From Kaistia soli DSM 19436 (GTDB lineage: Bacteria > Pseudomonadota > Alphaproteobacteria > Rhizobiales > Kaistiaceae), in NCBI RefSeq assembly GCF_900129325.1, contig NZ_FQUP01000002.1, positions 512,668-576,667 of the forward strand: DNA of 64,000 nt, written 5' to 3'. The position numbers were made by a program, and so were the translations under genes. Position 1 is the first letter of the stretch. Each line of letters begins with the position of its first letter. The notes beneath the pieces are model-generated. The model made no database searches. It was not told the DNA's origin and saw only the letters and a list, made by a program, of their open reading frames with translations. This document shows, piece after piece, positions 1 to 17,070 of the stretch.

Positions 1-754
1 CATCGATCTGGCCCTTATGGCCGCGCAGCGCATGGATGTCGGGATGGAAGGGCGCAGACGACCCCATGGCGGCATCGGTGGAAAGCGCCCCGGTGATCAG
101 TGCTGCCTGTGCGGCCCTGTGGGCGCGGAAGAGGCCGGCCAGCGCCAGCGCCGTCGATGTCTGGGTGCCGTTGATGAGCGCGAGCCCTTCCTTGGCGGCG
201 AACTCGATCGGCTTCAACCCCGCGCGCTCCAGCGCGGCGGCGCCGCTCATGCGCTCGCCGCCGAGGAAGGCCTCGCCCTGGCCCATCATGACGGCGGCCA
301 TATGCGCCAGCGGCGCGAGATCGCCGGACGCTCCGACCGAGCCTTTCTCGGGGATCAGCGGGACCACGCCGCTCTCCAGCATGTCCTCGATCAGCCTGAC
401 AACCGCGAGCCGCACGCCCGAGGCGGCGCGGCCGAGCGAGATCAGCTTCAGCGACAGGATCAGGCGAACGATATTCTCCGGCAGCGGCGCGCCGACGCCG
501 CAGCAATGCGACAGGATGAGGTTGCGCTGCAGCGTGGCGACATCGGCCGCATCGATCTTGATCGAGGCCAGTTTTCCAAAGCCGGTATTGATGCCGTAGA
601 CAGGTTCGTTGCCGGCAGCGATCTCCGCGATGCGCGCAGCAGCCCGCTCGATGGCGGCATCGCATGACGGCTCGATCCGGACGGGCTCGCCGGTCCAGTA
701 GATCATCTCCAGTTGCTGGAGCGTGACATGACCGGGTTTCAGAACGATGGTCAT
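1..754 (-). CDS. hutH: Histidine ammonia-lyase HutH (C-terminus beyond window edge)
   Basis: Deaminates L-histidine to trans-urocanate, the first Hut step, in the cytoplasm. I translated this from the strand because the gene runs off the left edge; 251 codons are visible of the roughly 510 usual for the family. YGINTGFG lies at residues 53-60. [11 protein letters not shown] contains the Ala142-Ser143-Gly144 triad that cyclises to the MIO electrophile. The ATG overlaps the stop of hutI as ATGA, so the two genes are translationally coupled and hutH is downstream in a hutI-hutH operon. hutU and hutG are not in the window and may lie to the left. Confidence 0.97.
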
Positions 755-2039: not shown

Positions 2040-2051
2040 ATGTATATACAT
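2040..2051. promoter_or_regulatory. HutC operator between hutI and hutF
   Basis: ATGTATATACAT is a perfect 12-bp palindrome in the 120-bp divergent gap. It matches the GT-N-TA-N-AC signature known for HutC-subfamily GntR regulators. It lies about midway between the two starts, so one bound HutC could repress both hutI-hutH and hutF-hutC, with urocanate as the usual inducer of the family. The sequence match is direct; binding is inferred. Confidence 0.8.
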
Positions 2052-2106: not shown

Positions 2107-3456
2107 ATGAGTGCGATCTTTGCGGAACTGGCCCTCGTCGACGGTGCCTGGCGACGGGATGTGCTGCTCTCGATCGAAGGCGGCGTGATCACCGCTATCG
2201 AGGAAGGCGGCTCCCCAGCCGATGCGTCCGATAATGCGGCGATCCTCGTTCCGGGCATGCCGAACCTGCACAGCCACGCCTTCCAGCGCGCGATGGCGGG
2301 ACTTGCAGAAGTGCGGGGGCCGGCTGCCGACAGCTTCTGGAGCTGGCGGACCGTGATGTACCGTTTCGCGCTCGCCATGGAGCCCGAAGATGTCGAGGCC
2401 GTTGCCGCCGCGCTCTACATGGACATGCTCGAGGCCGGCTTCACCCGCGTCGGTGAGTTCCACTATCTCCATCACGGCCGCGATGGCGCACCCTATGCCG
2501 ATATCGCAGAACTCGCCGCGCGCATCGTCGCCGCGAGCCGGACGAGCGGCATCGGGCTCACGCTCCTCCCGGTGTTCTATGCCTATGGCGGCTTCGGCAA
2601 GGCCGGCCCTCAACCCGGCCAGCGGCGCTTCATCAACACGCTCGACAGCTTCGCCGATCTGATGGCGGCGTGCCGAAAGCTGGTTGGCGGCGAACCCGGC
2701 GCCACGCTCGGCGTCGCGCCGCATAGCCTCCGCGCCATCAGCCCTGACGAATTGCCGGCGTTGATCGCACTTGGCGAGCGCGGACCTGTTCATATGCATA
2801 TCGCCGAGCAGATGCGGGAGGTCGAGGACTGCCTCGCTTGGTCGGGTGCGCGGCCGGTGGAGTGGCTGCTCGCGCATACTCCCGTCGACGCGCGCTGGTG
2901 CCTGATCCATGCGACCCATATGACCGAGGCCGAGACAATCGCCATGGCTCGCTCGGGCGCGACGGCTGGCCTTTGCCCCATCACGGAAGCCAATCTCGGC
3001 GACGGCGTCTTTTCGGCACCCAGCTTTCTGCGGGAAGGCGGGTGCTTCGGCATCGGCTCGGATTCGAATGTCTCGATCTCTGTTGCTCATGAACTCCGTC
3101 AGCTCGAATATTCCCAGCGCCTGTTCCATCAGGCGCGCAACGTGATCGCAGAGCCCGGCGGCTCCACTGGACGCCGGCTGTTCGATGGGGCGATCGCGGG
3201 CGGAGCCGCCGCACTTGGCGTCCGCGCGGGGCTTTCAACCGGGGCCGACGCCGATATGGTATCGCTGGATGCCGGTCGCCTCGCCGGGGCGACTCCGGAC
3301 CAAATCCTCGATCGCTGGATCTTCGGCGACGGGGTCGCTGTGGATGGCGTCTGGACGCGGGGCAAGAGGCTGGTATCCGGCGGAAGACATTGCAATCATG
3401 ACGCAATACGCCGTGAATTCCGTTCAGCCATGGCAAGGCTTGTGGAGTGCGCCTGA
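2107..3456 (+). CDS. hutF: Formimidoylglutamate deiminase HutF
   Basis: Converts N-formimino-L-glutamate to N-formyl-L-glutamate plus ammonia, the deiminase branch of histidine degradation, in which HutG then releases formate and glutamate. The 449 residues fit HutF. NLHSHAFQRAM carries metal ligands His55 and His57. HMHIAEQMREVEDC near residue 231 and LIHATHMT supply further ligand and catalytic histidines. GSDSNVS near residue 318 supplies the catalytic Asp. It is first in a hutF-hutC operon, with hutC starting 23 bp after the hutF stop. Confidence 0.96.
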   Translation: MSAIFAELALVDGAWRRDVLLSIEGGVITAIEEGGSPADASDNAAILVPGMPNLHSHAFQRAMAGLAEVRGPAADSFWSWRTVMYRFALAMEPEDVEAVAAALYMDMLEAGFTRVGEFHYLHHGRDGAPYADIAELAARIVAASRTSGIGLTLLPVFYAYGGFGKAGPQPGQRRFINTLDSFADLMAACRKLVGGEPGATLGVAPHSLRAISPDELPALIALGERGPVHMHIAEQMREVEDCLAWSGARPVEWLLAHTPVDARWCLIHATHMTEAETIAMARSGATAGLCPITEANLGDGVFSAPSFLREGGCFGIGSDSNVSISVAHELRQLEYSQRLFHQARNVIAEPGGSTGRRLFDGAIAGGAAALGVRAGLSTGADADMVSLDAGRLAGATPDQILDRWIFGDGVAVDGVWTRGKRLVSGGRHCNHDAIRREFRSAMARLVECA

Positions 3457-3479
3457 TTAGTCAGCCTGCTGGAAGCCCG

Positions 3480-4223
3480 ATGGACGCCAAAGACACACCA
3501 AGCCTGACCCTGCATCAGAAGATCCTCGGAGACATCGAGCGCAAGATCGTATCGGGCGAATGGCCGCCCGGTCATCGGCTGCCATTCGAGGTCGATCTGG
3601 CGAAGTCCTATGATGTCTCGCGCATGACCGTGAACAAGGTCATGACGCAGCTCGCGCGGTCCGGGCTCATCGAGCGTCGCAAGCGTTCGGGATCGTTCGT
3701 TTCCCTGCCGCGTGTACAGGCAGCCATCCTGGAGATCAGCGACATCGAGGCCGAGGTCCGTTCTCTGGGGCGGCCTTACTCCTATGCGATCCTCTCCTCT
3801 TCGGTCCGCCGCATGGAAGATACCGACGTCGCGGACTGCGATATTCCCGAGACTTCGGAGGTGCTCGACGTGACCTGCGTCCACTATGCCGGCGGCGTGC
3901 CCTTTTGCATCGAGGAGCGGCTGATCAATCTTTCCGTCGTTCCCGAGGCGCGGGCGGGCACGTTCGAGACCAGTCCGCCCGGCGCATGGCTGCTCAAGCA
4001 GGCGCCGTGGAGCACGGCCGAGCACCGGATCTTCGCAGTCAATGCGGTGGGAGGCCTGCCGAAGCTGCTGAACATTCCCAAGAACGCGGCCTGCCTCGTC
4101 GTGCAGCGCCGCACATGGAGTGAACTCGGCCCCGTCACCCATGTCCGCCTGACCTATCCGGGCGAACAACACTCGATCGTCGCGCGTTTCGCGCCGGCCG
4201 GGCCCTCGTCGGATCGCTCCTGA
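3480..4223 (+). CDS. hutC: GntR/HutC-family repressor of histidine utilisation
   Basis: Transcriptional repressor with an N-terminal GntR winged helix (about residues 10-76, including SYDVSRMTVNKVM as the recognition helix) and a C-terminal UTRA ligand domain that in HutC senses urocanate. I chose the ATG at 3480, giving 247 residues, because GGAAG precedes it. A GTG at 3447 inside hutF would add 11 residues. It lies directly downstream of hutF and so is probably autoregulated through the 2040 box. Two further boxes suggest that it also controls the neighbouring transporter and catabolic operons. A hairpin separates it from the convergent ABC genes. Confidence 0.93.
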   Translation: MDAKDTPSLTLHQKILGDIERKIVSGEWPPGHRLPFEVDLAKSYDVSRMTVNKVMTQLARSGLIERRKRSGSFVSLPRVQAAILEISDIEAEVRSLGRPYSYAILSSSVRRMEDTDVADCDIPETSEVLDVTCVHYAGGVPFCIEERLINLSVVPEARAGTFETSPPGAWLLKQAPWSTAEHRIFAVNAVGGLPKLLNIPKNAACLVVQRRTWSELGPVTHVRLTYPGEQHSIVARFAPAGPSSDRS

Positions 4224-4244: not shown

Positions 4245-4268
4245 GGATCCCGCCCGATGGGCAGGATC
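4245..4268. terminator. Bidirectional hairpin between hutC and the ABC ATPase gene
   Basis: GATCC-C-GCCC and GGGC-A-GGATC form a stem with one mismatch and a GAT loop in the 43-bp convergent gap. There is no long T tract. It probably terminates both operons. Confidence 0.5.
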
Positions 4269-5046
4269 AGAGTTTCTCGTCCTTCGAGCCTGCTCGGATG
4301 GCTGCGAGCACGTCCTTCTGCAAGGCAATAAACGCGCTGCTGGCGATCATGTCCTGGTTACGCGGGCGGGAAAGACCGACATGGAACTCGGCGTGGATCC
4401 GGCCGGGGCCGATCGCCATCGCAATGATCCTGTCCGAGAGGTAGACCGCTTCCTCAACGTCATGCGTCACGAACAGCACCGTCAGCCGATGCTCCTCCCA
4501 GATCTGGGTGAGCAGTTCCTGCATCTCGTGCCGCGTCAGGGCGTCGAGCGCGCCGAACGGCTCGTCCATCAGCAGCATTTTCGGCCGATAGGAGAGCGCA
4601 CGGGCGATTGCCACCCGTTGCTTCATGCCGCCCGACAGCTGAGACGGATAGGCGTCGGCGAAGCGCGTGAGCTTCACGAGCTCGATATGGGCCCGCGCAA
4701 TGTCGCGGCATTCACCAGCCGACATCCCGGCGGCCTTCAGCGCAAACTCGACATTTTCCTGCGCCGTCAACCAGGGCAGCAGCGTGTAGGACTGAAAGAC
4801 GACACCGCGGTCGAGGCCCGGCCCGACGATCGGCGCCCCGTCAGTCAGCAGCACCCCCTTATCGAAGCCCTGCAGCCCGGCGACGATCGACAGCAGCGTG
4901 CTCTTGCCACAGCCCGATGCACCGACGAGCGAGACGAATTCGTTGTCGGCCAGCTTCAAATCGATATCGGCAAGCGCGTGCATGGGGCCGCGCTTGCCCG
5001 GATACCATTTGTTGAGACCCGCGATCTCGAGCTTCGGCACGCTCAT
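4267..5046 (-). CDS. ABC transporter ATP-binding protein, NitT/TauT (SsuB-like) family
   Basis: Cytoplasmic ATPase subunit of an importer. GASGCGKST near residue 45 is the Walker A motif, LSGGMKQRVAIARA the signature, LLMDEP the Walker B and VTHDVEEA the switch His. The 259 residues are typical of SsuB/TauB/NrtD proteins. It is the last gene of the operon, one base after the permease stop. Substrate cannot be read from the ATPase. Its place between hutC and a HutC-boxed catabolic operon suggests histidine, urocanate or a related imidazole compound, in place of the better-known HutXWV transporter. Confidence 0.9.
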   Translation of the reverse strand: MSVPKLEIAGLNKWYPGKRGPMHALADIDLKLADNEFVSLVGASGCGKSTLLSIVAGLQGFDKGVLLTDGAPIVGPGLDRGVVFQSYTLLPWLTAQENVEFALKAAGMSAGECRDIARAHIELVKLTRFADAYPSQLSGGMKQRVAIARALSYRPKMLLMDEPFGALDALTRHEMQELLTQIWEEHRLTVLFVTHDVEEAVYLSDRIIAMAIGPGRIHAEFHVGLSRPRNQDMIASSAFIALQKDVLAAIRAGSKDEKL

Positions 5047-5047
5047 C

Positions 5048-5908
5048 TCACTGCCTCGACTGATAGCGGAACAGGACGCGCTCGAGCGCCTTCATCGACT
5101 GGTCGGTGATGAGGCCGAGAATGCCGAGGAACAGGATGTAGCCGATGATGGTCTGGGTCTGGAAATAGCGCTGCGAGACTGTGATCCGATATCCGAGCCC
5201 CGAAGTCGCGGCGACGAGCTCGGCCAGAACGAGCCAGGTCCAGGCCCAGCCGAGGCTGATCCTGAGCGTGTCCCAGATTCCCGGCAGCGCTGATGGCAGG
5301 ACGATCCGGGCCAGGATCTTCGATTCGGACAGTCCCAGTGTCCGGCCAAGCCCGACAAAGTCTGGCGGGACGCGCTTGACGTTGTCCATCACCATCAGGA
5401 CCTGCTGGAAGAAGGTGCCGATCCAGATGATGACGAATTTCTGCCCGTCGCCGGTGCCCGCCCAAAGGATGGACAGCGGCACGAAGGCGACGACCGGCAT
5501 GTAGCGCACGAAGTCGACGAAGGGCTCGATCGCCGCTTCCCAGACACGGAAGCAGCCGATGAGAATACCGATCGGGATCGCCATCAAGGAGGCGAGGGCG
5601 AACCCGATCAGCATGCGATAGACGCTGATGCTGGCGTCCTTCCAGAGCGTCCCGTCCGCCGACAGCTCCAGCATCCGCGACCAGACGGTGCCGGGCGAGG
5701 GGAGGAAGATCGGCTTGACCAGACCCGAGGTCGTGGCCGCCCACCAGACAACCAGGAGGCCGGCGAATACGGCGATGGCGATCGCCAGAAAGGTCCTGCC
5801 ATCAAGGCCCGACCCGATCCGGAACGCGCCGGGCGGCCGGCCGACGCCTGCCCGCGTATGCGGAAGGGCGTTGCGGCCGGAGGTGCTGGTTTCAACGGGC
5901 GAGGACAT
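5048..5908 (-). CDS. ABC transporter permease, NitT/TauT (SsuC-like) family
   Basis: Inner-membrane permease with about six predicted membrane segments, beginning with FLAIAIAVFAGLLVVWWAA after a short Ser/Thr-rich cytoplasmic tail. The SAGLGYRI-like region near the C-terminus and the EAA-type loop with LGLSESKILARIVLPSALP are characteristic of SsuC/TauC proteins and contact the ATPase. It lies between the binding-protein gene (28 bp upstream) and the ATPase gene, forming one three-gene operon. Confidence 0.9.
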   Translation of the reverse strand: MSSPVETSTSGRNALPHTRAGVGRPPGAFRIGSGLDGRTFLAIAIAVFAGLLVVWWAATTSGLVKPIFLPSPGTVWSRMLELSADGTLWKDASISVYRMLIGFALASLMAIPIGILIGCFRVWEAAIEPFVDFVRYMPVVAFVPLSILWAGTGDGQKFVIIWIGTFFQQVLMVMDNVKRVPPDFVGLGRTLGLSESKILARIVLPSALPGIWDTLRISLGWAWTWLVLAELVAATSGLGYRITVSQRYFQTQTIIGYILFLGILGLITDQSMKALERVLFRYQSRQ

Positions 5909-5936
5909 CTCTGGACTTTCGCCGCTTCACCATCCC

Positions 5937-6950
5937 TTACTTGGCTGCGGCGGCTGCGAAGGACGGATCGATGATCGCCTCGGGTGCGATATCTTTCGTC
6001 ACCAGCTTGGCCTGCTTCGCGGCCTTCAGCACGTCGGCGAAGGTCTTGGAAGAGAAGCTGCCGGTAAGGGCATCATTGGCTTCCTTGACCGAATAATAGG
6101 TGACGCCGTCGAACGCCGTCGTCAGCTCGTCCGGCGAAGCGCCGACCGCTTCGGCGATGATCTTGCGATCCTCGTCGGTGTTCACGCGGTAGTCCGCGAG
6201 CGCCGCGTCCCAGGCCTTGAGCATGGCGACGACCTGGCCGGGCTTCGACTTCAGCACCTCGTCGCGCACGACGAAGACGTCCGAGATGAGGCCCGGATCC
6301 TCGCCAGCGGTGTAGAGAAGCTTCACGGCCTTGTCCTGGGCGCGGGCGGCCGAGATGTAGGGCTCGTAGGTGACGGCAACCGGGACCCGGCCGGCGATCA
6401 GCGCGCTGCCGGCATCGGAAGCGGGCATCGGCACGCGCGTGATGTCGTCCATCGTCATCCCGTTATTGGCGAGCGCGTAGTTGAGGAGGATGTCGCTGGT
6501 GGTGCCTTCCTCGAAGGCGACTTGCTTGCCCTTCAGATCGGCGATCGAATTGATGCCTTCACCGGCGACGATGGCGTCGGCGGTCAGGCTGAAGTCGAGC
6601 AGCATGACGATCTTCACCGGCAGGCCGGCCTCGACCATCCCGATCGCGGTATGGGTCGCGATATTGGCGGCGTCGAGCTGGCCACTGGCGAGGGCAGCGT
6701 TGATATCCTTGTCCTCGCTGAAATTCACGATCTCGACGTCGTTGAGGCCCTGCTTCGCGAAAAGGCCCTTCTTGGCCGCGACGTGCCACTGCCCATAGCC
6801 AAGCCACGGTTCGATGCCGAGCTTGAAGGAGCCCGGTTCCGGCGTCGTCGGCAGGGGCTCGGCCGCATGGGCAGCGCTGAGGCTACCGATCAGCGCCGCG
6901 GCCATGGCGATGGCACGGGTCGAGCGGGCGACGGTGTTGAGGTTGAGCAT
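5937..6950 (-). CDS. ABC transporter substrate-binding protein (SsuA/THI5-like)
   Basis: Periplasmic binding protein of the NMT1/THI5-like family. The ATG at 6950 is chosen because it begins a clear Sec signal (MLNLNTVARSTRAIAMAAA, ending near SAAHA) and is preceded by AGAGGG. An upstream in-frame Met at 7034 would precede this signal and lacks support. Mature motifs include IEPWLGYGQWHVAAKKG and LKGKQVAFEEG. It is the first gene of the importer operon, with a degenerate HutC-like box about 107 bp upstream. The ligand is unknown; histidine-related compounds are the contextual guess. Confidence 0.9.
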   Translation of the reverse strand: MLNLNTVARSTRAIAMAAALIGSLSAAHAAEPLPTTPEPGSFKLGIEPWLGYGQWHVAAKKGLFAKQGLNDVEIVNFSEDKDINAALASGQLDAANIATHTAIGMVEAGLPVKIVMLLDFSLTADAIVAGEGINSIADLKGKQVAFEEGTTSDILLNYALANNGMTMDDITRVPMPASDAGSALIAGRVPVAVTYEPYISAARAQDKAVKLLYTAGEDPGLISDVFVVRDEVLKSKPGQVVAMLKAWDAALADYRVNTDEDRKIIAEAVGASPDELTTAFDGVTYYSVKEANDALTGSFSSKTFADVLKAAKQAKLVTKDIAPEAIIDPSFAAAAAK

Positions 6951-7056
6951 CCAAACAATCCCTCTGGTTCGGCGGAGTCGAAGTTCTCCGGTTCCATCCG
7001 CCTTTGTTGTCGTTTTCTGGTGGCTTGCGCGCAAGTTTGTTCTTGTTGTCCGATTA

Positions 7057-7070
7057 TAAGTATAGATTTA
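7057..7070. promoter_or_regulatory. Candidate degenerate HutC operator upstream of the ABC importer
   Basis: TAAGTATAGATTTA is an imperfect palindrome with 10 of 14 positions symmetric. Its core GTATAGAT differs by one base from GT-N-TA-N-AC. It lies between the FMN oxidase stop and the importer start, in a locally AT-rich stretch. Weaker than the boxes at 2040 and 12843. Confidence 0.45.
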
Positions 7071-7124
7071 TTGCGCGTGTCGTTTCAAGCAGACTGATGG
7101 CTGGCGAGGCCGGGAAGCGCCATT

Positions 7125-8282
7125 TCAGGCCCTGGGCGCATCGAGGAAACGGACCGCCGAACGCCCGTTTCGCCGCAACGCGTCGACGGAATCGAGACCC
7201 ATCAGGGCAAGGTTTATTGTCAGCTCCGTCCTGAAGATGTTGAGCAGCTTTGCGACGCCGGCCTCACCGCCAGCCGCCAGCGCGAAGGCATAGGAGCGGC
7301 CGAGCATGACGCCGGACGCGCCGAGTGCCAGCGCCTTGATGACATCAGAGCCACGCCGAAAGGCGCCGTCGATCAGGATGTCGATCTCGCCGCCGAGTTG
7401 TTCGGCGATCTCGGGCAGCGCCGATATCGTGGAGGGCGCGGCGTCGAGCTGGCGGCCGCCATGGTTGGAAATCACGATGGCGTCGGCGCCGGTTGACCTG
7501 GCCAGTTGCGCATCGGCTGCCGTCAGGATGCCCTTGATGACGAGCTTGCCATTCCATCGCTCACGCAGCCATGCGACGTCGGCCCAGCTGAGCGTCTTGT
7601 CGATCCGCCGCGACAGGTTCGCCGCCTGCTCAAGAGCGCCGCGGCCGAATTCGGCGCGGTGATCGACAGCTTCGACCGAGGGCGTTCCCTTGCCGAGAAC
7701 GTCGAGGCACCAAGCCGGTCGCGTCGCCATGTTCATCAGCATGGCCGGGGTCAGACGCGTTGCGGCGCGAAAGCCGTTGCGCACATCCTTTTCCCTTATG
7801 CCGGTGATCGCCGTGTCGACGGTCACAAAGAGGGCGCCAGCACCGGCGCGCTCGGCACCGGCCAGCAGCTCCTCGGTGAGCCCGCGGTCGTCCAGGATAT
7901 AGAGTTGGAAATAGCCTTCGCCGCCAGCCGCTCGCGCCACCGACCCGATTGAGCGGATCGAGAATGTCGAGAGGCACCAGGGGATGCCCGCGGTCGCCGC
8001 CGCACGGGCGGCTGCGATCTCACCGTCGCGCCGATAGAGGCCGAGAAATCCGACCGGCCCCAGCATCAGCGGGAGGGCCGCGCGATGACCGAGGATATCG
8101 GCGCAAAGATCCTGCTGCATCGACCCGCGCAGGACGCATTGCTCGAGCGCCCAGCGGTCGAAATCGTCGCGGTTGCGGCGGAGCGTGGTCTCGCCGAAGC
8201 TGCCGCCATCGATATAGTCGAAGAAGATCTTCGGCAGCCGTCGCCGCGCGGCGTCCCTGAAGTCATCGGCATTGACGATCAT
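7125..8282 (-). CDS. FMN-dependent alpha-hydroxyacid oxidase/dehydrogenase (LldD/glycolate oxidase family)
   Basis: Oxidises an L-2-hydroxy acid to the 2-keto acid with FMN. The 385 residues are family length. An N-terminal FDYIDGGSFGETTLRRN segment resembles the family start, YFQLY and VTVDTAI line the flavin site, and SNHGGRQLD near residue 269 carries the catalytic His and substrate-binding Arg. DILIDGAFRRGSDVIKALALGA is the FMN phosphate site. It is the last gene of a five-gene operon starting at 12777, 18 bp after the kinase gene. An imidazole-lactate type substrate would fit the locus but is speculation. Confidence 0.9.
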   Translation of the reverse strand: MIVNADDFRDAARRRLPKIFFDYIDGGSFGETTLRRNRDDFDRWALEQCVLRGSMQQDLCADILGHRAALPLMLGPVGFLGLYRRDGEIAAARAAATAGIPWCLSTFSIRSIGSVARAAGGEGYFQLYILDDRGLTEELLAGAERAGAGALFVTVDTAITGIREKDVRNGFRAATRLTPAMLMNMATRPAWCLDVLGKGTPSVEAVDHRAEFGRGALEQAANLSRRIDKTLSWADVAWLRERWNGKLVIKGILTAADAQLARSTGADAIVISNHGGRQLDAAPSTISALPEIAEQLGGEIDILIDGAFRRGSDVIKALALGASGVMLGRSYAFALAAGGEAGVAKLLNIFRTELTINLALMGLDSVDALRRNGRSAVRFLDAPRA

Positions 8283-8300
8283 CGTGCTGCCTCGCGCGAG

Positions 8301-9614
8301 TCAGGCTGGGTCAATGGAGTCGAAGAACGCCGTCATCAGATCGCTGCCTCTATCCGGCTCAGACCCCACCATGACCGCAACACCGAAGGCGATCGCCGAG
8401 GACGACGGATTGTGAGTGGCCGCGCCGGCCCGGAGGTTCATCACCAGCGTCGGGCACAGGAAGAGGGCGTTGCGGATCACCTGCCGCCAGTCGCCCGGCA
8501 GTAGCCCGCGCGTTCGCAGCAAGGCAAGCAGCGGCCGCCAAACCTCCGCCGCCTTGGCATGCAGCAGCCGCTTGCGCACCGCCGAGAGATCCCAGTCTGT
8601 CTCGATGGACAGGATACCATCCCGATAATTGGCGCGCGTCTGGTAGCGGCGCTCCGCCTCAGCCGGCTCATAGAGCCAGAACGGATGGGCAAGGCAATTG
8701 TGAAACGTGGCCTTCACCTCCGCCAGGAGGGCGGGGACGTTCTCCCCTGCGAAAGCCGGGTCGAAATACATGAGCCGCGGCTGCAAAGCGTCATCGAGGT
8801 ACCAGACATTGGCATTGTGGGCGTCGCCATGGGCGATCACGCCGCCCGCATCGGCGAGGTGGCGCGGATCAAGGCGGTGAAGCGCATCTTCGAACAACGC
8901 TCCCACCGACCGGCGATAGGTCGTCCCGTTGAAGCAGATCCTTGCACTGGAGAACTCGTCCCATGAGAGGTCTGCGCCGGGAAAGCGGAAGCGCTGGCCG
9001 ATATAGAACTGCCGGTACCGCCCGCCTGGAGCCAGTCCCGTGGAGGGATCGATCATGCGTTGGTGAAACAGCCGGTGGACCGGTTCGGCCTCGGATTCTG
9101 CCGCGGTGATCGGATGAAGGCTCCGTTCGAAGACCCTGAAGATCTCGCCGTTGAGAGCCGTTTCGGCCGCGATTGCGCGATCCTCGGCCGCATCGTCCAG
9201 TCCTATATCAAGACGGCGCAGGACATCTGAAAAGCGTGGGTCGGTCCGGCGGCGATAGATCAGGATTTGCTCGCCGGCCATCACCGACTTGTAGACGGGC
9301 AGATCGATCGGCAGCCCCGCTTCGGCAAGAATGTCGGCGCGATAATATTCGCCCGCCATCGCCTCTTCACCTTCCTCTTGGTGAAACTTGAAGAAGTAGT
9401 CGGCACCGGCGGAGGTCAGGAAGCCGTTGAGCGAGTTGAGGCTGTACTGGTCGCGATTGATGATGACATCGGTGATGGGAATCTTGAAGAGATCGGCAAT
9501 CAAGGCGGCGATCAGCCGCCGTGCCTCGCCGTCGTCTTCGCGGGCCATGGCCCTGATCGCGGCCGTGCGGCTGTCGGCTTTGGCTGTGTTCATCAACTGG
9601 GGCTGATCTGTCAT
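8301..9614 (-). CDS. APH/choline-kinase-fold phosphotransferase, substrate unknown
   Basis: The 437-residue protein has the aminoglycoside-phosphotransferase/kinase fold signature. VIAHGDAHNANVWYLDD near residue 260 holds the catalytic Asp and Mg-binding Asn, and LMYFDPAFAG supplies the second metal Asp. The N-terminal half contains YFFKFHQEEGEEAMAGEY, a plausible ATP-lysine and helix-C Glu region. The operon context (dehydrogenases on both sides) suggests a small alcohol or amino alcohol as substrate rather than an antibiotic. It lies 10 bp after the alcohol dehydrogenase gene. No specific function can be named. Confidence 0.75.
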   Translation of the reverse strand: MTDQPQLMNTAKADSRTAAIRAMAREDDGEARRLIAALIADLFKIPITDVIINRDQYSLNSLNGFLTSAGADYFFKFHQEEGEEAMAGEYYRADILAEAGLPIDLPVYKSVMAGEQILIYRRRTDPRFSDVLRRLDIGLDDAAEDRAIAAETALNGEIFRVFERSLHPITAAESEAEPVHRLFHQRMIDPSTGLAPGGRYRQFYIGQRFRFPGADLSWDEFSSARICFNGTTYRRSVGALFEDALHRLDPRHLADAGGVIAHGDAHNANVWYLDDALQPRLMYFDPAFAGENVPALLAEVKATFHNCLAHPFWLYEPAEAERRYQTRANYRDGILSIETDWDLSAVRKRLLHAKAAEVWRPLLALLRTRGLLPGDWRQVIRNALFLCPTLVMNLRAGAATHNPSSSAIAFGVAVMVGSEPDRGSDLMTAFFDSIDPA

Positions 9615-9624
9615 CGTGATAGCG

Positions 9625-10626
9625 TCACCGGTGTGGCAGGACGATTGACTTCAGGCCCGTCGCGGCGCCGGCAATGATCCGCTCATAGGCGCGTGGAACA
9701 TCGTCGAGCGCATATTCCGCATCGATCCACCGAAGCAGAATGTCGGCATGCCGGCCGGCCAGTACGGAGGCTTCGATGAGATCGTCGGTGGTGAAGGCGT
9801 GGCATCCGTAAAGCGTCGTCTCCTTCTCGACGAGGAGGTTGGGGTCGAGCGCGACGGTGCCATGCGAAATGCCGACCAGCGCCAGCCCGCCACCCGAACG
9901 CATGCCCCGAATGACGGTCTCGATCACAGCCACATTGCCACTGGCGTCGAAGACATGTCCGATCGTGGCAAGCAGCTCCTCCGTCAACTCGACGACGCGC
10001 GCGCCGATGCTGTCGGCGACCAGCGCGGCGCGAGCCGCGTTGCGGTCTGTGATCAGGATCGGCCCGTCATGGGCAGTGGAGAGAATCAGCGCAATCAGGC
10101 CGCCGATCGTGCCGCATCCGACGACCAGGACGGGCTCGCCTTGCGGAGGGGCGAGCCGCCTGACGGCATGGAGTGCGACGGCCAGCGGTTCGGTCATGGC
10201 CGCGGCGCGCGCATCAATGGACGGATCGATCCTGTGCAGCAGGGATGCGGGCAGCACGACCTCTTCGGCGAAGCCGCCGTCGCAGGCCTCGCCGACGAAG
10301 CCGAGCGACCGGCAGATATTGTTGCGCCCGGCTCGGCAATGATCGCATGTGCCGCAATAAAAGCGGGAATCGACAGCGACGCGATCGCCGATCGCGAGGG
10401 TCGCGACCCCCTCACCGAGAGCCAGCACTTCGCCGGTGAGTTCGTGCCCGGCGATGTGAGGCGGGCCGCTCAGCCAGCGTCCCGTGAGATAGTTATGGAT
10501 ATCGGAACCGCAGATTCCGGCGGCCAGCACCTTGAGATGGGCCTCCCCGGCTCGTGGCGGGGGCGGGGGGCCGACCGCCTCCACCGAGAGCGTGCGAATG
10601 CTATGCAGCCTGACTGCCTTCATCAC
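9625..10626 (-). CDS. Zinc-dependent medium-chain alcohol dehydrogenase
   Basis: MDR-superfamily dehydrogenase of 333 residues, close to the sorbitol/L-idonate/threonine dehydrogenase group. CGSDIHNY begins the catalytic zinc site and GHELTGEV continues it. The structural zinc loop is present as CGTCDHCRAGRNNIC. VVGCGTIGG is the NAD(P) Rossmann glycine motif. It starts 2 bp from the HisD-paralogue stop, so it is in the same operon. Together with the SDR it could oxidise or epimerise a hydroxyl group of the unknown substrate. Confidence 0.9.
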   Translation of the reverse strand: MMKAVRLHSIRTLSVEAVGPPPPPRAGEAHLKVLAAGICGSDIHNYLTGRWLSGPPHIAGHELTGEVLALGEGVATLAIGDRVAVDSRFYCGTCDHCRAGRNNICRSLGFVGEACDGGFAEEVVLPASLLHRIDPSIDARAAAMTEPLAVALHAVRRLAPPQGEPVLVVGCGTIGGLIALILSTAHDGPILITDRNAARAALVADSIGARVVELTEELLATIGHVFDASGNVAVIETVIRGMRSGGGLALVGISHGTVALDPNLLVEKETTLYGCHAFTTDDLIEASVLAGRHADILLRWIDAEYALDDVPRAYERIIAGAATGLKSIVLPHR

Positions 10627-10628
10627 GA

Positions 10629-11951
10629 TCAGCGCTTCAGATAGGCGTCGCGCATCTCGGACACCGCGTTGTAATGCGACGAGAAGCCTTCATAGCGGGC
10701 AAGCGTTCGCGCGTGGCGGGCGAAGAGCGGATAGGCGTCGGCCGTCACATAGCCGATCGATGAGCGCTTGACGAAGTCGTGGACCGAGAGCGGACCCCAA
10801 GTGCGTGCCCAGCGGCTCGTCGGAAGGACCGCGTTCGGCCCGAGGCCGAAATTGGCGATGGTGACGGGCGTGTGCGGCCCCATCAGGATTTCTGCTGCCT
10901 CCGTGATCCGGCCGAGATAGGCGAAAGGGTCGGTCGAGAGGATCTCGAGATGCTCCGGCGCATAGTTGTTCACAAAAGCGATGCTCTCCTCGGCGCTCGC
11001 GGTCAGCACGATGCCGCCATAGCGTCCGGTCAGCACCGCCTTCGAGAACGCGACGCGCTGCTCGGTCATCCGCGCCCAATGATCGGGAAGCGCGGCGAGA
11101 GCCTCCTCCGCGACCCTTCGGCTATGCGTGACCAAAAACGCTGACGAATCCGGCCCATGCTCCGCTTCGACCAGGAGATCGAGGGCCGCGAGGCCGCCAT
11201 GGACGGTGTCATCGGCCAGGATCACCGCCTCGGAGGGCCCGGCCGGCAGCCCCGCATCGATGACCCCGGCCAGCACGCGCTTGGCGGCGACCACCCAGGG
11301 ACTGCCGGGGCCGACGATCTTGAGCGCTTTCCGCACGGTCTCGGTGCCATAGGCCACCGCAGCCACCGCCTGCGCGCCGCCGCATTTGTAGACCGTGTCG
11401 ACGCCCGCGATGCGCGCGGCCACCAGCGTCGCCGCATCGACAGAGCCATCCGCCGTTGGCGGTGTGATGATGGAGATCTCGGGCACGCCAGCGACAACTG
11501 CCGGCACCGCTGTCATCATCGTCACCGAGGGAAAGGCGCCCTTGCCGCGCGGAATATATAGGGCAACCGACCGGATGGGCGTGTAGCGATCGCCGGCAAA
11601 GCCGCCCGGCCGGATCTCCTTCAGCCACATCGCCTCCGGCTTCTGCTCCTCGTGAAAGAGGCGGATGTTCTCGACGCCGAAACTGATCGCCTCGATGACC
11701 TCGGGATCGACGGTCTTGAAGGCACGATCGAACTCTTCCTCGGTCGCTTTCAGCCGGCCCGACTCCACGGACGCCTTGTCGAGTTCCCGCGCGAAGCGCA
11801 CCAGCGCCGCGTCGCCCTCGACCCGAACGGCCTCGATGATCGGTTTGACCTTCTCGACGAAGACGGAAAGGTCGGATTCCGATCGCTTCAGAAGCGCCTC
11901 ACGGGCTGCTCCATCAAGGTGTGCCAACTCGTGGAAGGAGACATTGGACAT
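10629..11951 (-). CDS. Histidinol-dehydrogenase-family enzyme (HisD paralogue, catabolic context)
   Basis: NAD-dependent HisD-fold protein that would oxidise a primary alcohol to the acid. The ATG at 11951 (440 residues) is used; the reading frame continues upstream without homology. It keeps GPSEAV, the AEHGPDS histidine, the catalytic pair in YAPEHLE and the C-terminal EGFSSH. Compared from memory with E. coli HisD, the zinc-ligand Gln259 position is Glu, Asp360 (GDY) is Asn (ANF) and the substrate His367 is Ala. That argues against simple biosynthetic HisD and towards another substrate, as in HpsN-type relatives. Setting in a hut regulon supports a catabolic role. Confidence 0.87.
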   Translation of the reverse strand: MSNVSFHELAHLDGAAREALLKRSESDLSVFVEKVKPIIEAVRVEGDAALVRFARELDKASVESGRLKATEEEFDRAFKTVDPEVIEAISFGVENIRLFHEEQKPEAMWLKEIRPGGFAGDRYTPIRSVALYIPRGKGAFPSVTMMTAVPAVVAGVPEISIITPPTADGSVDAATLVAARIAGVDTVYKCGGAQAVAAVAYGTETVRKALKIVGPGSPWVVAAKRVLAGVIDAGLPAGPSEAVILADDTVHGGLAALDLLVEAEHGPDSSAFLVTHSRRVAEEALAALPDHWARMTEQRVAFSKAVLTGRYGGIVLTASAEESIAFVNNYAPEHLEILSTDPFAYLGRITEAAEILMGPHTPVTIANFGLGPNAVLPTSRWARTWGPLSVHDFVKRSSIGYVTADAYPLFARHARTLARYEGFSSHYNAVSEMRDAYLKR

Positions 11952-12012
11952 CGTGTTCTTCTCTGGACTGTGCTTGGGGCGCCGACCGCTGATGCCAAAG
12001 CCCGATTCAGGT

Positions 12013-12777
12013 TCAGATGCTGGCGAGATAGCCGCCGTCGACGGGCAGGCACTGGCCGGTGATATAGGCGGAAGCCTCGCTCGCGAGAAAGACGGCGACG
12101 CCCGCCAGGTCTTCAAGCTTGCCGAAGCGCCGCAGCGGAATCTTGGCGATCATTGTCTCTCGCCAGCTCTCGGAGGCGTAGAAGCCGTCGGTCATCGCCG
12201 TATGGAAATAGCCGGGCGCAATCGCGTTGACACGGATATCGAGCGATGCCCATTCCGCAGCCAGGGCGCGTGTCATGCCGAGCAGGCCCGATTTGGACGA
12301 CGTGTAGGGCGCGGCGGTGGGAATGCCGACATAGGAGGTGAGCGAGCAGAGATTGATGATCGAGCCGCCGCCGCCCGTCTTCATCTCCCTGGCCGCCGCC
12401 TGAGCGGCGAAGAACGCGCCTTTGAGATTGGTATCGACGATAGCGTCCCACTGCGCTTCTTCGATATCAAGCGAAGGACAGACCTCTTCGTAGCCGGCAT
12501 TGTTCACGAGAATGTCCAGCTTGCCGAATTTGACGGCAGCATGGTGCACGGCCGCCCGACAGGCGCCCGTATCGCGCACGTCGAGCGCAATGGCGAGTGC
12601 ATTGCGGCCTGTCGCCTCGATGGCGGTTCGGGTTGCGTCGAGATCCGCGATGTTCCGCGCAGAGATGGCGATGTCGGCGCCTGCCCCGGCCAGCGCCTCG
12701 GCGATTTCCCGACCGATGCCCCGGCTTGCGCCGGTGACGAAGGCGTATTTCCCCATCAAGGCGAAACTGACAGTCAA
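12013..12777 (-). CDS. Short-chain dehydrogenase/reductase, probable TTG start
   Basis: Classical SDR: TGASRGIG is the NAD(P) site, NNAG follows, the catalytic Ser is in NLCSLTS, YTSSK carries Tyr-x-x-x-Lys, and the C-terminus ends DGGYLASI. A TTG at 12777 preceded by GGGAG gives the usual SDR N-terminus (TVSFALMGKYAFVTG). An ATG at 12756 lacks a ribosome site and would give 247 residues. It is the promoter-proximal gene of the five-gene operon, 66 bp downstream of a HutC box. The reaction is unknown; reversible oxidation of a secondary alcohol is likely. Confidence 0.88.
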   Translation of the reverse strand: MTVSFALMGKYAFVTGASRGIGREIAEALAGAGADIAISARNIADLDATRTAIEATGRNALAIALDVRDTGACRAAVHHAAVKFGKLDILVNNAGYEEVCPSLDIEEAQWDAIVDTNLKGAFFAAQAAAREMKTGGGGSIINLCSLTSYVGIPTAAPYTSSKSGLLGMTRALAAEWASLDIRVNAIAPGYFHTAMTDGFYASESWRETMIAKIPLRRFGKLEDLAGVAVFLASEASAYITGQCLPVDGGYLASI

Positions 12778-12842
12778 GCTCTGTCTCCCTCGTTGGCAAT
12801 CACCGAATCCCCTCGGGGGACTTGCTCGACATCCCGTCGAAT

Positions 12843-12858
12843 ATGTATAGACATACAT
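12843..12858. promoter_or_regulatory. HutC operator between SDR operon and aminotransferase gene
   Basis: ATGTATAGACATACAT holds the core TGTATAGACA, which fits GT-N-TA-N-AC exactly, and an outer inverted repeat ATGTAT/ATACAT. It lies in the 147-bp divergent gap, 66 bp from the SDR start and 67 bp from the aminotransferase start, the same geometry as the hutI/hutF box. This is the main sequence evidence that the flanking enzymes belong to the hut regulon. Confidence 0.72.
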
Positions 12859-12924
12859 CCATAGGCGTCTGGGCCTGTCAACTGCGAATTTTCGGCTGCG
12901 GCGCTCGGAACGGGAAGCATATCG

Positions 12925-14019
12925 ATGCATAAACTCATTCGAAGCGAAGTGCGCGAATTGTCCCCCTACAATGCGGGACTGACCATCGACGAGGTGCAGG
13001 CGCGCTATCATCCGCCGCGGATCGCGAAGCTCGGATCCAATGAAAATCCGCTCGGCGCGTCGCCTCATGTGACAACCGCGCTGGCATCGCTGGCGAAGGC
13101 AGTTGCCCTTTATCCGGACCCATCCGCTCGAACGGTTCGTGTCGCCTTGGCCAAATCGCTCGACATCGATGCAGAGGCGATCATTCTCGGCAACGGTTCC
13201 GAGGAACTGATTGCCGCGGCATGCCGCGCCGTCCTCGATCCTGGTGACAGGATGGTGACGTTCTATCCCTCGTTCCCCCTGCATGAGGACTATGCCACGA
13301 CGATGGGCGCGAATGTCGAGCGCGTCAGCGTCGAGGCCGATTTCTCCGTGCCGCTCGACCGGCTGATCGCGGCGGGTCGCGGTGCCAAGATGATGATGTT
13401 CTCCAATCCAATGAACCCAGTCGGCACTTGGCTGGAGACCGGAGCGTTTCGCAAACTGGTCACGACTCTCTCGCCGGAGACGCTGCTTGTGGTCGACGAG
13501 GCCTATTTCGAATATGCAGCAGGCGAGGTTGATTTCCCTTCTGCCATCGACATGCTTCGCGGTTCGGACCTCAATTGGCTGGTGCTGCGGACTCTCTCGA
13601 AAGCCTACGGCCTCGCCGGCCTGCGCGTTGGCTACGGCGTATGCAGCAGTCCGGAACTGAGATCTTTCCTTGATCGCGTGCGGACACCGTTCAACAGCAA
13701 TGCGGCAGCCCAGATGGCGGCGCTCGCGGCGCTTGCCGACCTGGATCATCTCGAGCGGGGCGTTGTGCATAATCGAAGCGAGCGTGTGCGGATCCGGTCT
13801 CTCCTCGCCGACAATGGATTTCGCGTCGCCCCATCCAAGGGCAATTTCCTGTTTGTCGACGTGCGCCAGCCGGCGAGCGTGGTCGCGGAGGCCTTGCTCA
13901 CGCGGGGTGTCATCATCAAGCCGTGGCGACAGGCCGGCTTCGATCATTTCATCCGGGTGAGTATCGGATCGTCCGACGACAACGACTTCTTCGTCCGGTC
14001 GCTATTGGAGGTCGTTTGA
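12925..14019 (+). CDS. HisC-like aminotransferase (class I/II, PLP-dependent)
   Basis: Fold-type I aminotransferase of 364 residues resembling histidinol-phosphate aminotransferase. SNENPLGAS is the HisC N-terminal substrate motif, SNPMNPVG and DEAYFEY bind the cofactor, TLSKAYGLAGLRVGY carries the PLP lysine, and IRVSIGS holds the C-terminal Arg. HisC enzymes can also use aromatic 2-keto acids. In this locus it could turn imidazole-pyruvate or imidazole-acetol compounds into histidine or histidinol derivatives. It diverges from the SDR operon over a shared HutC box. It is unlikely to be the biosynthetic hisC because no his genes surround it. Confidence 0.88.
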   Translation: MHKLIRSEVRELSPYNAGLTIDEVQARYHPPRIAKLGSNENPLGASPHVTTALASLAKAVALYPDPSARTVRVALAKSLDIDAEAIILGNGSEELIAAACRAVLDPGDRMVTFYPSFPLHEDYATTMGANVERVSVEADFSVPLDRLIAAGRGAKMMMFSNPMNPVGTWLETGAFRKLVTTLSPETLLVVDEAYFEYAAGEVDFPSAIDMLRGSDLNWLVLRTLSKAYGLAGLRVGYGVCSSPELRSFLDRVRTPFNSNAAAQMAALAALADLDHLERGVVHNRSERVRIRSLLADNGFRVAPSKGNFLFVDVRQPASVVAEALLTRGVIIKPWRQAGFDHFIRVSIGSSDDNDFFVRSLLEVV

Positions 14020-14167
14020 GCCGAGTTGGCCGCCGCGATCGATCATGGCATCAGTATCGATGACGACTTCAATGATCACACCGAGCTATGTCCCGACATC
14101 ATCTGTGGATTCCCGCGCCAATGCCTGATCGAGCGAGCTGATGCGCTACCGCGTCGAGCACCGGGCC

Positions 14168-16141
14168 ATGCCCATCGTCGGCTATGTCGAGCCGTGGACA
14201 GGGCCTCCGGGAACACGCTCGCTCAGCGCTTCGTCCGATCGCCCTATCGACGCCGTGAGAATCCGGCGGCTGGACCGTGACGACATGCCGGCGATCGATT
14301 GGCCGGTGCGGACGGCCAGAGCCGCAGAGCATCAAGTGTTTGCGCGCGGCGCCTGGGCCTCCATCGAACGCTACGAACACCTTGGCGCGATTGCCAATCT
14401 CAGTTTCGAGATTCTCCTGACCCGCAATGTGGGCCGCAAGGTTCTCTTGGACGGGGGCACCTTCCAGCTCGTCATCAAGGGCGGGGCGCTGGAGCTCGAG
14501 GTGGGCGGCCACAAGACCCAGTTGGTTGAATTGCCTTCGCGCGAATGGTTGCGTCTTGAGCTGAACTGGCACGAGGGGAGATTGACGGCGAGCAGCCTGA
14601 ATGCCTTCAAGCCTCATCTCTCGAGCGCAGCATTCGATGCGCCGCGACCCATGATCATCGCCTTGTTTTCCGATGTGAAAGAGTCCGTCGCTACCCTCAA
14701 CGCGCGACTGGGAAGGATCCAGCTTTCAGGCGCAGACGGCGTCGCCGACTGGGTGTTTCCAACTCTGTTCACTGAGGCGCCGATGATCGCTGCCGGAGCG
14801 GCGCTCCGCCTTCGTGGAGGCCCAACCTTCTGCGTCTGCTCGGCGCGCTGGGATGGCAGCGTGCTCGATCCGCGTCTTGCTCCGGACCATTACGACGCCT
14901 TACATTTCCACGAAACGGATATGGAGGGGTTGGATTGGCCGGTAAACTATACAGTCGAGATTCCGGATGGCGCTGAAAGCGGCGTCTACGCATTCGAACT
15001 GATTTCGGCAGACATCAGCGAGCGCATTCCATTCTTCGTTGCCACAAGCCATCCCGCCGCCGCGCTGTTGTTCGTGGTCCCGACCTCGACCTATCTCGCT
15101 TATGCCGACGAATACCTTCCTCCCCATCTCTATGAGTGGATAGGAACGGACGGGGGTCATGTCTTCGCGCGGGACAATGAGCTTCGGTCGCTCTACGACT
15201 TTCACGCCGACGGCAGTGGCGTGTCGCTGGTGTCGACGCGAAAGCCCAAGGCGACCCTGCGTGATGATTATAAATACCCGCTTTGCGGTGATCCGCACAA
15301 TCTCCCGGTCGATCTGCATTTCCTGAAGTTCTGCGCGCGTCATGGCATTGCTGTCGATGTCGCGACCGATGCCGATCTTCATCGCGAGGGCGCCGCGCTC
15401 CTCGGCCGCTATCGTGGCGTGATCACAGGCAGCCACCCTGAATACCTTTCGGTCCGAATGGAGCAGGCCTATCGCGGCTATGTGGCGGGCGGCGGACGGC
15501 TCGCCTATCTCGGCGGCAATGGTTTCGCGGCCGTGGTGGCTTACCGTGATGAATGGATGGAACTCCGCCGCGGTCCCACACAAGCCGGCCGCACCTGGGA
15601 CGGACCCTTGGCCGAGATGAGCCTCGCCCTGACCAACGAGCCAGGCGGATATCTCAGAGACCGCGGCAAAGGCGAACATCGCCTTGTGGGGGTTGGCATC
15701 TCCCTGATGGGGTTCTCGTCGGCCTTGCCGTTTCAACGCAGGGAAGCCAGCTTTGCGAAAGGCTTCGAATGGTTGTTCGCGGGCGTCGCAGATTGTTTCG
15801 GCGATTCCGGGATCGTGCTGGGCGGTGCCGCGGGCTACGAGGTCGATTCGGTCAACTACCCCTTGGGCAGTCCGCTCGATATCGTCATTCTGGCTACGGC
15901 GACGGGCTTTCCGGACGACTATGTCGATGATCCTGGCAGGTGGTTTGAGGCAGGGAACGAAGACCGGCGATCGCAACGGCGCGCCGATATGACGTTCTGG
16001 AAGCATCCGTCCGGCGGCATCATATTTTCCGCCAGTTCCGTGTCCTTTCTCGGCGCGCTTCCCGGCCAGGGCGAGAACAATGACGTGGGCACGCTGACGA
16101 TCAATTTGCTTCGAGGACTTGAGCAACGGGACGTCTTATGA
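14168..16141 (+). CDS. N,N-dimethylformamidase beta-subunit-like amidohydrolase
   Basis: Large protein (657 residues from the ATG at 14168, which gives the family-like start MPIVGYVEPW; an ATG at 14141 adds nine residues). A LamG/concanavalin-like stretch spans about residues 40-190. The C-terminal DMFase domain shows VVPTSTYLAYADEYL, GSHPEYLSVRMEQAYRGYVAGGG and YLGGNGF, typical of the dimethylformamidase large subunit, whose iron site uses two Tyr and one Glu. No small-subunit gene is adjacent, so it may act alone. It probably hydrolyses an amide or C-N bond of the locus substrate. It lies 148 bp after the aminotransferase stop, likely cotranscribed. Confidence 0.82.
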   Translation: MPIVGYVEPWTGPPGTRSLSASSDRPIDAVRIRRLDRDDMPAIDWPVRTARAAEHQVFARGAWASIERYEHLGAIANLSFEILLTRNVGRKVLLDGGTFQLVIKGGALELEVGGHKTQLVELPSREWLRLELNWHEGRLTASSLNAFKPHLSSAAFDAPRPMIIALFSDVKESVATLNARLGRIQLSGADGVADWVFPTLFTEAPMIAAGAALRLRGGPTFCVCSARWDGSVLDPRLAPDHYDALHFHETDMEGLDWPVNYTVEIPDGAESGVYAFELISADISERIPFFVATSHPAAALLFVVPTSTYLAYADEYLPPHLYEWIGTDGGHVFARDNELRSLYDFHADGSGVSLVSTRKPKATLRDDYKYPLCGDPHNLPVDLHFLKFCARHGIAVDVATDADLHREGAALLGRYRGVITGSHPEYLSVRMEQAYRGYVAGGGRLAYLGGNGFAAVVAYRDEWMELRRGPTQAGRTWDGPLAEMSLALTNEPGGYLRDRGKGEHRLVGVGISLMGFSSALPFQRREASFAKGFEWLFAGVADCFGDSGIVLGGAAGYEVDSVNYPLGSPLDIVILATATGFPDDYVDDPGRWFEAGNEDRRSQRRADMTFWKHPSGGIIFSASSVSFLGALPGQGENNDVGTLTINLLRGLEQRDVL

Positions 16142-16994: not shown

Positions 16995-17003
16995 CCACTC
17001 ATT

Positions 17004-17045: not shown

Positions 17046-17070
17046 GGATGGCAAGTGTGGAGAACGCGAT

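Follow-up and report, generated by a model that had tools for sequence, protein, structure and literature searches.

We analyzed a 64,000-nucleotide stretch (the window) of the genome of Kaistia soli DSM 19436 and closely examined a gene cluster that adjoins its histidine utilization (hut) genes. Sequence evidence says that the cluster represents a conserved pathway under a HutC-type regulator, tied to histidine degradation, with a distinct subfamily of histidinol dehydrogenase (HisD), here named HisD2, at its heart. On balance, and with somewhat more confidence than doubt, we favor a HutC-controlled peripheral pathway that oxidizes an imidazolyl alcohol and feeds the Hut pathway, for which we infer HutC binding, the effector, the substrate and every reaction.

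The cluster sits on contig 5 of the 5.23-Mb genome, and its genes were confirmed with open frames by open reading frame (ORF) listing and hidden Markov model (HMM) scans. On the minus strand lie genes for a short-chain dehydrogenase/reductase (SDR; 12013..12756; PF13561/PF00106), the histidinol-dehydrogenase paralogue HisD2 (10629..11951; E262/N367 at the positions of Gln259/Asp360, motif PRGKGAF), a Zn-dependent alcohol dehydrogenase (ADH; 9625..10626; nearest NCBIfam models threonine 3-dehydrogenase, under cut-off), a putative small-molecule kinase (8301..9614) and a flavin mononucleotide (FMN)-dependent 2-hydroxy-acid oxidase/dehydrogenase (7125..8282; PF01070, 421 bits). They are followed by an ATP-binding cassette (ABC) importer, consisting of a binding protein of the NMT1/SsuA type (5937..7034; PF09084; TIGR01728 at 154 bits, under the cut-off of 163.5), a SaoP/TauC/SsuC-like permease (5048..5908; HMM scans) and an ATPase, abcA (4267..5046; PF00005). 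The successive gaps from the SDR gene to the last importer gene are 61, 2, 10, 18, 90, 28 and 1 bp, and because of this short spacing SDR through abcA probably form one eight-gene unit. Divergently, on the plus strand, are encoded a HisC-like aminotransferase of the HisC3 type (12925..14019; TIGR01141 at 284 bits, cut-off 276.55; NF003496 at 535.8, cut-off 540) and an accessory hydrolase resembling the large subunit of dimethylformamidase (DMFase; 14141..16141; PF20254, 222 bits). The first-pass annotation had described this gene set beside hut, including the importer and the divergent pair, and all of these frames are open; it had also separated a five-gene operon from the importer, which is right for the genes but, judging from the spacing, probably not for the two units.

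To the left of the cluster, the plus strand carries hutC, encoding a GntR/UTRA repressor (3447..4223; TIGR02018 at 280.6 bits, cut-off 220), and hutF for formimidoylglutamate deiminase (2107..3456), an orthologue of which (locus L089, ~50% identical) scores 658 bits with TIGR02022. The minus-strand genes hutI (imidazolonepropionase; 751..1986) and hutH (histidine ammonia-lyase; 1..766, extending left past the window start) were named by eye from their translations. hutG, also named by eye, and hutU, named by TIGR01228, follow hutH just outside the window. Since the genome has a second HisD and another over-cut-off hisC elsewhere, the HisD2 and HisC-like genes of the cluster are extra copies.

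Candidate HutC operators and linkage to hut genes

HutC is the only protein of this genome above the TIGR02018 cut-off, the next best match reaching 141 bits. The label is specific, since in each of 21 genomes with a kinase orthologue only 1 to 4 HutC proteins among 13 to 44 family matches exceed it. Two putative HutC-type boxes were found, ATGTATATACAT in the hutI-hutF intergenic region (2040..2051) and ATGTATAGACAT between the SDR and hisC-like genes (12843..12854). With at most one mismatch they are the sole matches in the window, and two such boxes occurred in none of 100 dinucleotide shuffles of it. Genome-wide, ATGTATANACAT with at most one mismatch recovered both promoter sites and one further, weaker one-mismatch site; the pattern read backwards, which served as control, gave one match per strand. 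The sharing of boxes proposed in the first-pass annotation thus held up, with just these two strong boxes instead of one per unit.

Furthermore, we surveyed eight HutC genomes of five genera and found exact boxes in seven of them. These amount to 21 distinct sites, 18 at hutI-hutF (or hutI), SDR or potA promoters (11 placed by local coordinates, the other 7 by spacing to mapped genes) and 3 elsewhere. In a zone comprising the 350 bases before the SDR frame and its first 90 bases, TGTATAGACA or its complement was present in 45 of 69 loci with an SDR frame, and many Mesorhizobium loci carry a TTGTATATGC repeat instead. At the level of sequence, an operator common to the hut and SDR promoters and conserved in relatives (genome G250 excepted) is well supported.

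Co-occurrence was assessed across the order in an even sample of 297 genomes, which is less biased than the locus set described below, with a HisD2 threshold of E <=1e-110. HisD2 was found in 50 genomes (21 of 122 genera) and hutU in 155. The lists, compared by eye, revealed hutU in 48 of the 50 HisD2 genomes versus 107 of the 247 others (Fisher 2e-13; this and the binomial values ignore kinship), and in all 18 genomes with the kinase. HisD2 lies no more than 25 kb from hutU in at least 12 of the 48 genomes, representing 8 genera (G000, G010, G013, G040, G080, G098, G115, G145, G155, G181, G203 and G250), while random placement would give about 0.5 genomes. Pathway and hut genes are arranged back to back in loci L128, L134 and L158, and in L127 a DMFase-like gene stands beside hutU. 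A second HutU-like gene besides the main hutU was noted in G187, G243 and G567 (685-697 bits with TIGR01228).

To describe the composition of related clusters, a scan with the kinase was run, which yielded 234 relatives; the best 80 loci were kept, a set hence biased towards close clusters. Scored by identity thresholds, these loci contain HisD2 (77), ADH (73), SDR (70), a HutC-type regulator (59), a Pot-type importer (41), the HisC-like aminotransferase (39), an SsuA-type importer (30), hut enzymes (16), the FMN oxidase (14) and the DMFase-like hydrolase (5). Among the 63 long loci of at least 17 kb (the 17 shorter ones were left out), 48 have a HutC-type gene, 13 have hut enzymes and 57 have either. 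The HutC paralogues inside clusters share 64-84% identity with that of L027, with L089 as exception (48%). All eight regulators scanned from HisD2 clusters (L027, L065, L089, L105, L128, L130, L136 and L139) exceed the TIGR02018 cut-off, which holds even for clusters with no hut gene in the fetched stretch, for example on Paroceanicella and Pacificitalea plasmids; a ninth scanned regulator, encoded by a GntR gene in HpsN-type cluster L137, falls under it. A genome search for co-occurrence with hutC, suggested in the first-pass annotation with the concern that the same set might consistently accompany non-hut regulators, therefore did not bear this concern out. Likewise, the HutC control and the link to histidine degradation that it proposed are well supported, as far as sequences can tell, by the near-unique box pair, its recurrence in relatives, HutC or hut genes at most loci and the co-occurrence with hutU.

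The window represents the full gene set without a second HutC. Clusters of the type SDR-HisD2-ADH-HutC2-abcSPA that have no kinase occur in G229, G105 and, with the FMN oxidase, G050. Among the genes searched for, G247 holds only SDR, HisD2 and importer, and G087 these plus a HutC paralogue; in G085, HisD2 is found with importer and HutC paralogue, and the kinase lies elsewhere in the genome. When genes are clustered, the constant parts are the importer, HisD2, usually the SDR and usually a HutC-type regulator; the optional ones are kinase, ADH, FMN oxidase, aminotransferase and DMFase-like hydrolase. Since FMN oxidase, aminotransferase and DMFase-like enzyme belong to the optional parts, the sequence of oxidation and transamination put forward earlier cannot be the general core, and the DMFase-like gene is peripheral.

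Several variant arrangements were observed. A plasmid of Shinella sp. PSBB067 (L136, 3591-13335) has a second kind of HutC-type/HisD2 cluster, with no hut genes within the fetched stretch, that comprises a DMFase-like gene, an ABC importer, a HutC-type regulator (232 bits, over cut-off), a gamma-glutamyltransferase, a DadA-like flavin adenine dinucleotide oxidoreductase and a HisD2 at 55%. On plasmids of Klebsiella michiganensis and K. variicola (L103, L138), the order is FMN oxidase - abcSPA - HisD2 - kinase - ADH - SDR, next to genes annotated as N-formylglutamate amidohydrolase, isochorismatase-family hydrolase and glutamine synthetase family protein. In the hut operon of Aureimonas (L089, 13381-16277), HutH is divergent (39% to the window HutH and short of the TIGR01225 cut-off), HutF is at 50%, and a HutC paralogue adjoins.

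The HisD2 subfamily

The window HisD2 exceeds the HisD cut-offs, with 447.8 bits for PF00815 and 423.5 bits for TIGR00069. Residue numbers follow E. coli HisD and were verified against a hisD record of that species. The window protein retains Glu326, His327, His262, His419, Ser140, Ser237 and Glu414, and it has Glu for Gln259, Asn for Asp360 and Ala for His367. The Zn ligands of HisD are Gln259, His262, Asp360 and His419; the window protein has Glu, His, Asn and His at these positions and so departs from the HisD set. Glu and Asn are present in 80 of 80 HisD2 sequences of a first alignment (window, 77 loci and 2 plasmid records). The same pair and the motif PRGKG[AS]FP are present in 25 of 25 sequences of a second set (window, 23 loci and PSBB067), in which most cluster members have Ala at 367, the ten lone ones have His and one sequence has Cys. 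A working Zn site would be plausible, because the exchange retains one carboxylate and one amide ligand. Glu414 was dropped as a marker for imidazole, as the HpsN sequence has it too. The Arg and Lys within PRGKG might point to an anionic substrate.

HisD2 shares with biosynthetic HisD the family, Glu326/His327, two His ligands, Ser140, Ser237, a hydrophobic/aromatic residue at 138 and an aromatic one at 361. Unlike biosynthetic HisD, it has the Glu and Asn exchanges, often Ala at 367 and the PRGKG motif, is a second copy beside another hisD in the genome, and is linked to hut rather than his genes.

HpsO belongs to the SDRs and HpsP to the Zn-ADHs, and together with the HisD relative the window holds a trio that resembles HpsN/HpsO/HpsP. 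This suggested degradation of 2,3-dihydroxypropanesulfonate (DHPS) or a similar sulfonate, in line with the SsuA/TauC-like importer and with a Paracoccus hisD-SDR-ADH trio that carries the HpsN motif in L137. In the passages available of the HpsN study, the Zn ligands are His, His, Asp and Gln, and the sulfonate is contacted by His126 and Lys353 (PMC11382572). At the latter two positions, 25 of 25 HisD2 have Phe and Phe/Tyr, like the hydrophobic/aromatic residues of HisD, and the HpsN motif G-R-Y-A/S-H (GRYxH) is replaced by G-K-G-A/S-F. In phmmer comparisons, HisD2 scored 179-191 bits against HpsN chains and 211-253 bits against HisD chains. The HutC link also speaks against a sulfonate pathway, and general HMM scans, which included no search aimed at SuyAB, revealed no SuyAB-like gene among the window proteins. 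We set this pathway aside on the sulfonate residues and regard it as very improbable.

The HpsN-HpsO-HpsP module is similar in that a HisD-fold dehydrogenase and two secondary-alcohol dehydrogenases act on a diol, with a four-electron conversion of CH2OH to COOH, as described in those passages (PMC11382572). In contrast, the cluster has no sulfonate-recognition residues, its Zn ligands are swapped, its regulator is HutC and not HpsR, and it includes aminotransferase and kinase genes. Because the Zn ligands are swapped and the sulfonate residues replaced, the metal site sets HisD2 apart from HisD, and the substrate site sets it apart from HpsN. By sequence, it is a distinct subfamily of the HisD fold with HisD-like pocket positions.

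Proposed pathway and competing explanations

In the pathway that we favor, the ABC importer would take up an imidazole-bearing alcohol, either L-histidinol or a 2-hydroxy analogue (imidazolyl-propanediol or imidazole-glycerol), of which the analogue would fit the SDR/ADH/FMN set better. The SDR, with the Zn-ADH where present, would oxidize or invert the secondary hydroxyl; the DHPS-2-oxidoreductases HpsO and HpsP, which may oxidize or invert a secondary alcohol, are the model for this role. By removing four electrons, HisD2 would convert the terminal CH2OH to COOH, i.e., R-CH(X)-CH2OH to R-CH(X)-COOH if it is HisD/HpsN-like. With X = NH2, histidinol would become histidine in one step and enter Hut directly. 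With X = OH, oxidation would yield a 2-hydroxy acid, which is the kind of substrate that the FMN oxidase uses; the keto acid formed from it would be the kind that the aminotransferase uses. For R = imidazolylmethyl, imidazolyl-propanediol would be converted to imidazole-lactate, which the FMN oxidase and the HisC-like aminotransferase would turn, via imidazolepyruvate, into histidine for Hut. The kinase would serve an additional hydroxylated substrate as an optional branch. HutC would repress both units via the boxes at 2040 and 12843 and be released by urocanate, its effector in studied bacteria; because the product yields urocanate, one repressor could control both.

A more specific version, for which we see only a modest chance, is a salvage-and-burn route for overflow compounds of histidine biosynthesis, namely imidazole-glycerol, imidazole-acetol and histidinol. 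Here, kinase, HisC-like aminotransferase and HisD2 would replay the end of histidine biosynthesis for catabolism under HutC, HisD2 doing so with carboxylate and amide ligands exchanged in its Zn site. The ring-side hydroxyl would be phosphorylated, and the phosphate would leave after oxidation by HisD2 to give imidazolepyruvate directly.

The kinase, termed APH-like in the first-pass annotation, has no Pfam or NCBIfam match and does not reach the gathering score of PF01636 (APH); two orthologues touch this model at 21.3 and 16.8 bits, under the cut-off of 23.2. Its predicted structure (mean predicted local distance difference test score of 90) has the fold of choline and 5-methylthioribose (MTR) kinases according to Foldseek. 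This fold, the motif HGDxHxxN (invariant HGDAHNAN) and a metal-binding Asp (D285) suggest a small-molecule kinase like MTR kinase, PsiK or choline kinase. Within the order, 18 of 297 genomes have an orthologue; across the phylum, it is 7 of 398. Orthologues are also present in 107 plasmid records, and none was found in the phage records searched. The kinase was dropped as a core enzyme, as clusters without it exist, and the isolated kinase loci L064 and L132 offered no clear clue to its substrate. In L132 (7333-10307; G085), the lone kinase orthologue is divergent from a gene for a HutH-family protein (38% to HutH), and HisD2, importer and HutC paralogue lie elsewhere in that genome (L147).

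Could the substrate be a conjugate? The importer might bring in an Amadori- or opine-like compound in which a sugar, a polyol or an acyl group is attached to histidine or an imidazole amine. This compound would be split, with histidine passing to Hut and SDR, ADH, kinase, HisD2 and FMN oxidase processing the polyol part. The best scores of the SDR are to sugar and sugar-acid dehydrogenase models and those of the ADH to threonine and polyol dehydrogenase models, and the kinase fold is near that of MTR kinase. For the Pot-type binding protein found as an alternative, an agropine-binding protein (1.7e-8) and PotD (1.4e-8) are matches of similar quality, and a mannopine-binding protein is a weaker one (2.2e-5). 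A splitting activity might come from the DMFase-like protein present in some clusters or the gamma-glutamyltransferase encoded in one. In the former, Tyr, Tyr and Glu align with the iron ligands of the DMFase large subunit, presumably Tyr399, Tyr440 and Glu521 in its numbering. However, no splitting enzyme is conserved, the DMFase-like gene being confined to 5 of 80 loci; the sparse gene sets of G247 and G087 and the HisD-like pocket positions of HisD2 likewise argue against a conjugate, which we consider distinctly unlikely. The DMFase-like gene was also dropped as a pathway marker, as DMFase-like proteins are widespread, being present in 19 of 61 relatives (own genome included), with the other listed rows at 34-39% identity.

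An orthologous gene order is found in the SMa0387-SMa0402 operon of Sinorhizobium meliloti (pSymA; L104), which differs by its Pot-type instead of SsuA-type importer and by a HutC paralogue inside the operon. SMa0387 (hisC3), SMa0391-0396 (ABC), SMa0398 (hisD2) and SMa0402 (GntR) were assigned by gene order and the names in the available passages of PMC2912261. The kinase orthologue of strain 1021 lies at pSymA 218661-219926 in a record without annotation; from the numbering, we guess that it is SMa0403. In a tolC mutant, genes of the operon drop about 8- to 24-fold, alongside ntrB, ntrC and genes for nitrogen assimilation, as reported in passages that call the transporter "of unknown function" (PMC2912261), and this joint fall fits a nitrogen-scavenging role. 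SMa0392 is listed as a target of the small RNAs AbcR1/2 in the part of PMC8844928 available.

A number of observations weigh against an imidazolyl alcohol as substrate or against the Hut connection. No enzyme is tied to its substrate by sequence, and neither importer family, SsuA/NMT1 or Pot type, points to an imidazole. Passages on S. meliloti group the binding protein SMa0392 with possible polyamine importers (PMC3484140) and name SMa0391 potA (PMC12542648). Two of four Zn ligands, and position 367 too, differ from true HisD in the 80 sequences of the first alignment, and judging from these differences HisD2 might not bind an imidazole at all. Six of the 63 long loci have neither HutC-type nor hut genes (L026, L030, L034, L055, L064 and L066), and, as far as the genes looked for show, both SDR and importer are missing from 10 of 16 further HisD2 loci (L155-L157, L159, L164, L165 and L167-L170), so that HisD2 can act, or have another role, alone. 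HisD2 comes after hutU in L155-L157, and this adjacency may be partly positional because the far flank is the same in L164, which has no hut genes there. G204 (74% complete) and G280 have HisD2 without a hutU match. G250 has no exact box, and the control pattern gave one match per strand in G080 and G115 and none in the other six of the eight genomes. According to its title, a 2025 paper reports that Pseudomonas HutC senses PCA (PMC12772324), so that urocanate may not be the sole effector. Finally, five sampled genomes of the same genus have neither HisD2 nor kinase, which makes the cluster a local acquisition or a lineage remnant.

This last point would also suit a chance neighborhood, an unrelated operon beside hut with a fortuitous box; given the box statistics, the conservation and the recurrent linkage in 8 genera, we attach next to no probability to it. 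Another explanation is an unrelated nitrogenous alcohol or polyamine-like substrate, for which HutC and its paralogue would have been recruited; the neighborhood would then reflect common nitrogen regulation and not chemistry. The Zn-site swap with the new PRGKG motif, the six long loci, the nitrogen regulation in S. meliloti and the polyamine guess for SMa0392 point this way, and the HutC paralogue may sense a different ligand. Yet here a single HutC appears to serve both units, boxes are common to both in relatives and nearly all HisD2 genomes have hutU, so we judge this explanation unlikely and retain the HutC-controlled oxidation of an imidazolyl alcohol.

Neighboring genes, known systems and significance

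To the right of the DMFase-like gene, an alpha/beta-hydrolase-like ORF (minus strand) and a MarR-like ORF (plus strand) were recognized by eye at 16239-17526; the former, used as tblastn query, is not among the genes assigned in the related loci listed. Further on, a 1796-amino-acid ORF (18394-23784, minus strand) has, by eye, Ser/Thr-kinase-like and ATPase-like parts and a histidine-kinase-like end.

The closest described regulatory system is the HutC regulon of Proteobacteria, in which a HutC-type repressor likewise governs hut enzymes and transporters (PMC5343134). The available passages of this survey (Leyn et al. 2016) cover hut enzymes, paralogues of HutH and transporters, plus the histidine biosynthesis operon in two species; unlike here, they describe no SDR/HisD/ADH/kinase/FMN module, and "hisD" is absent from the main text. 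The survey also predicts an ABC importer "HisXYZ" in Rhizobiales (PMC5343134), which by analogy could be the importer found here. In open-licence PubMed Central, where absence is weak evidence, we found no papers on histidinol catabolism and, in the passages available on the SMa genes, hisC3/hisD2, HpsN, HutC regulons and imidazole acetol, glycerol or lactate, no description of this pathway. The available parts of S. meliloti growth papers name no pSymA-specific growth substrate.

Annotated plasmid records label HisD2-type genes hisD, and the window copy passes the NCBI cut-off, so that a hut-linked subfamily is hidden as biosynthetic hisD; ordinary annotation would read the cluster as stray histidine-biosynthesis genes. 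HisD2 offers a natural experiment in a metal site, with the Gln/Asp pair replaced by Glu/Asn. If the proposed pathway is true, the pSymA operon of S. meliloti would gain a function, HutC would govern the intake of a class of imidazole alcohols, and the natural source of these compounds would become a testable question.

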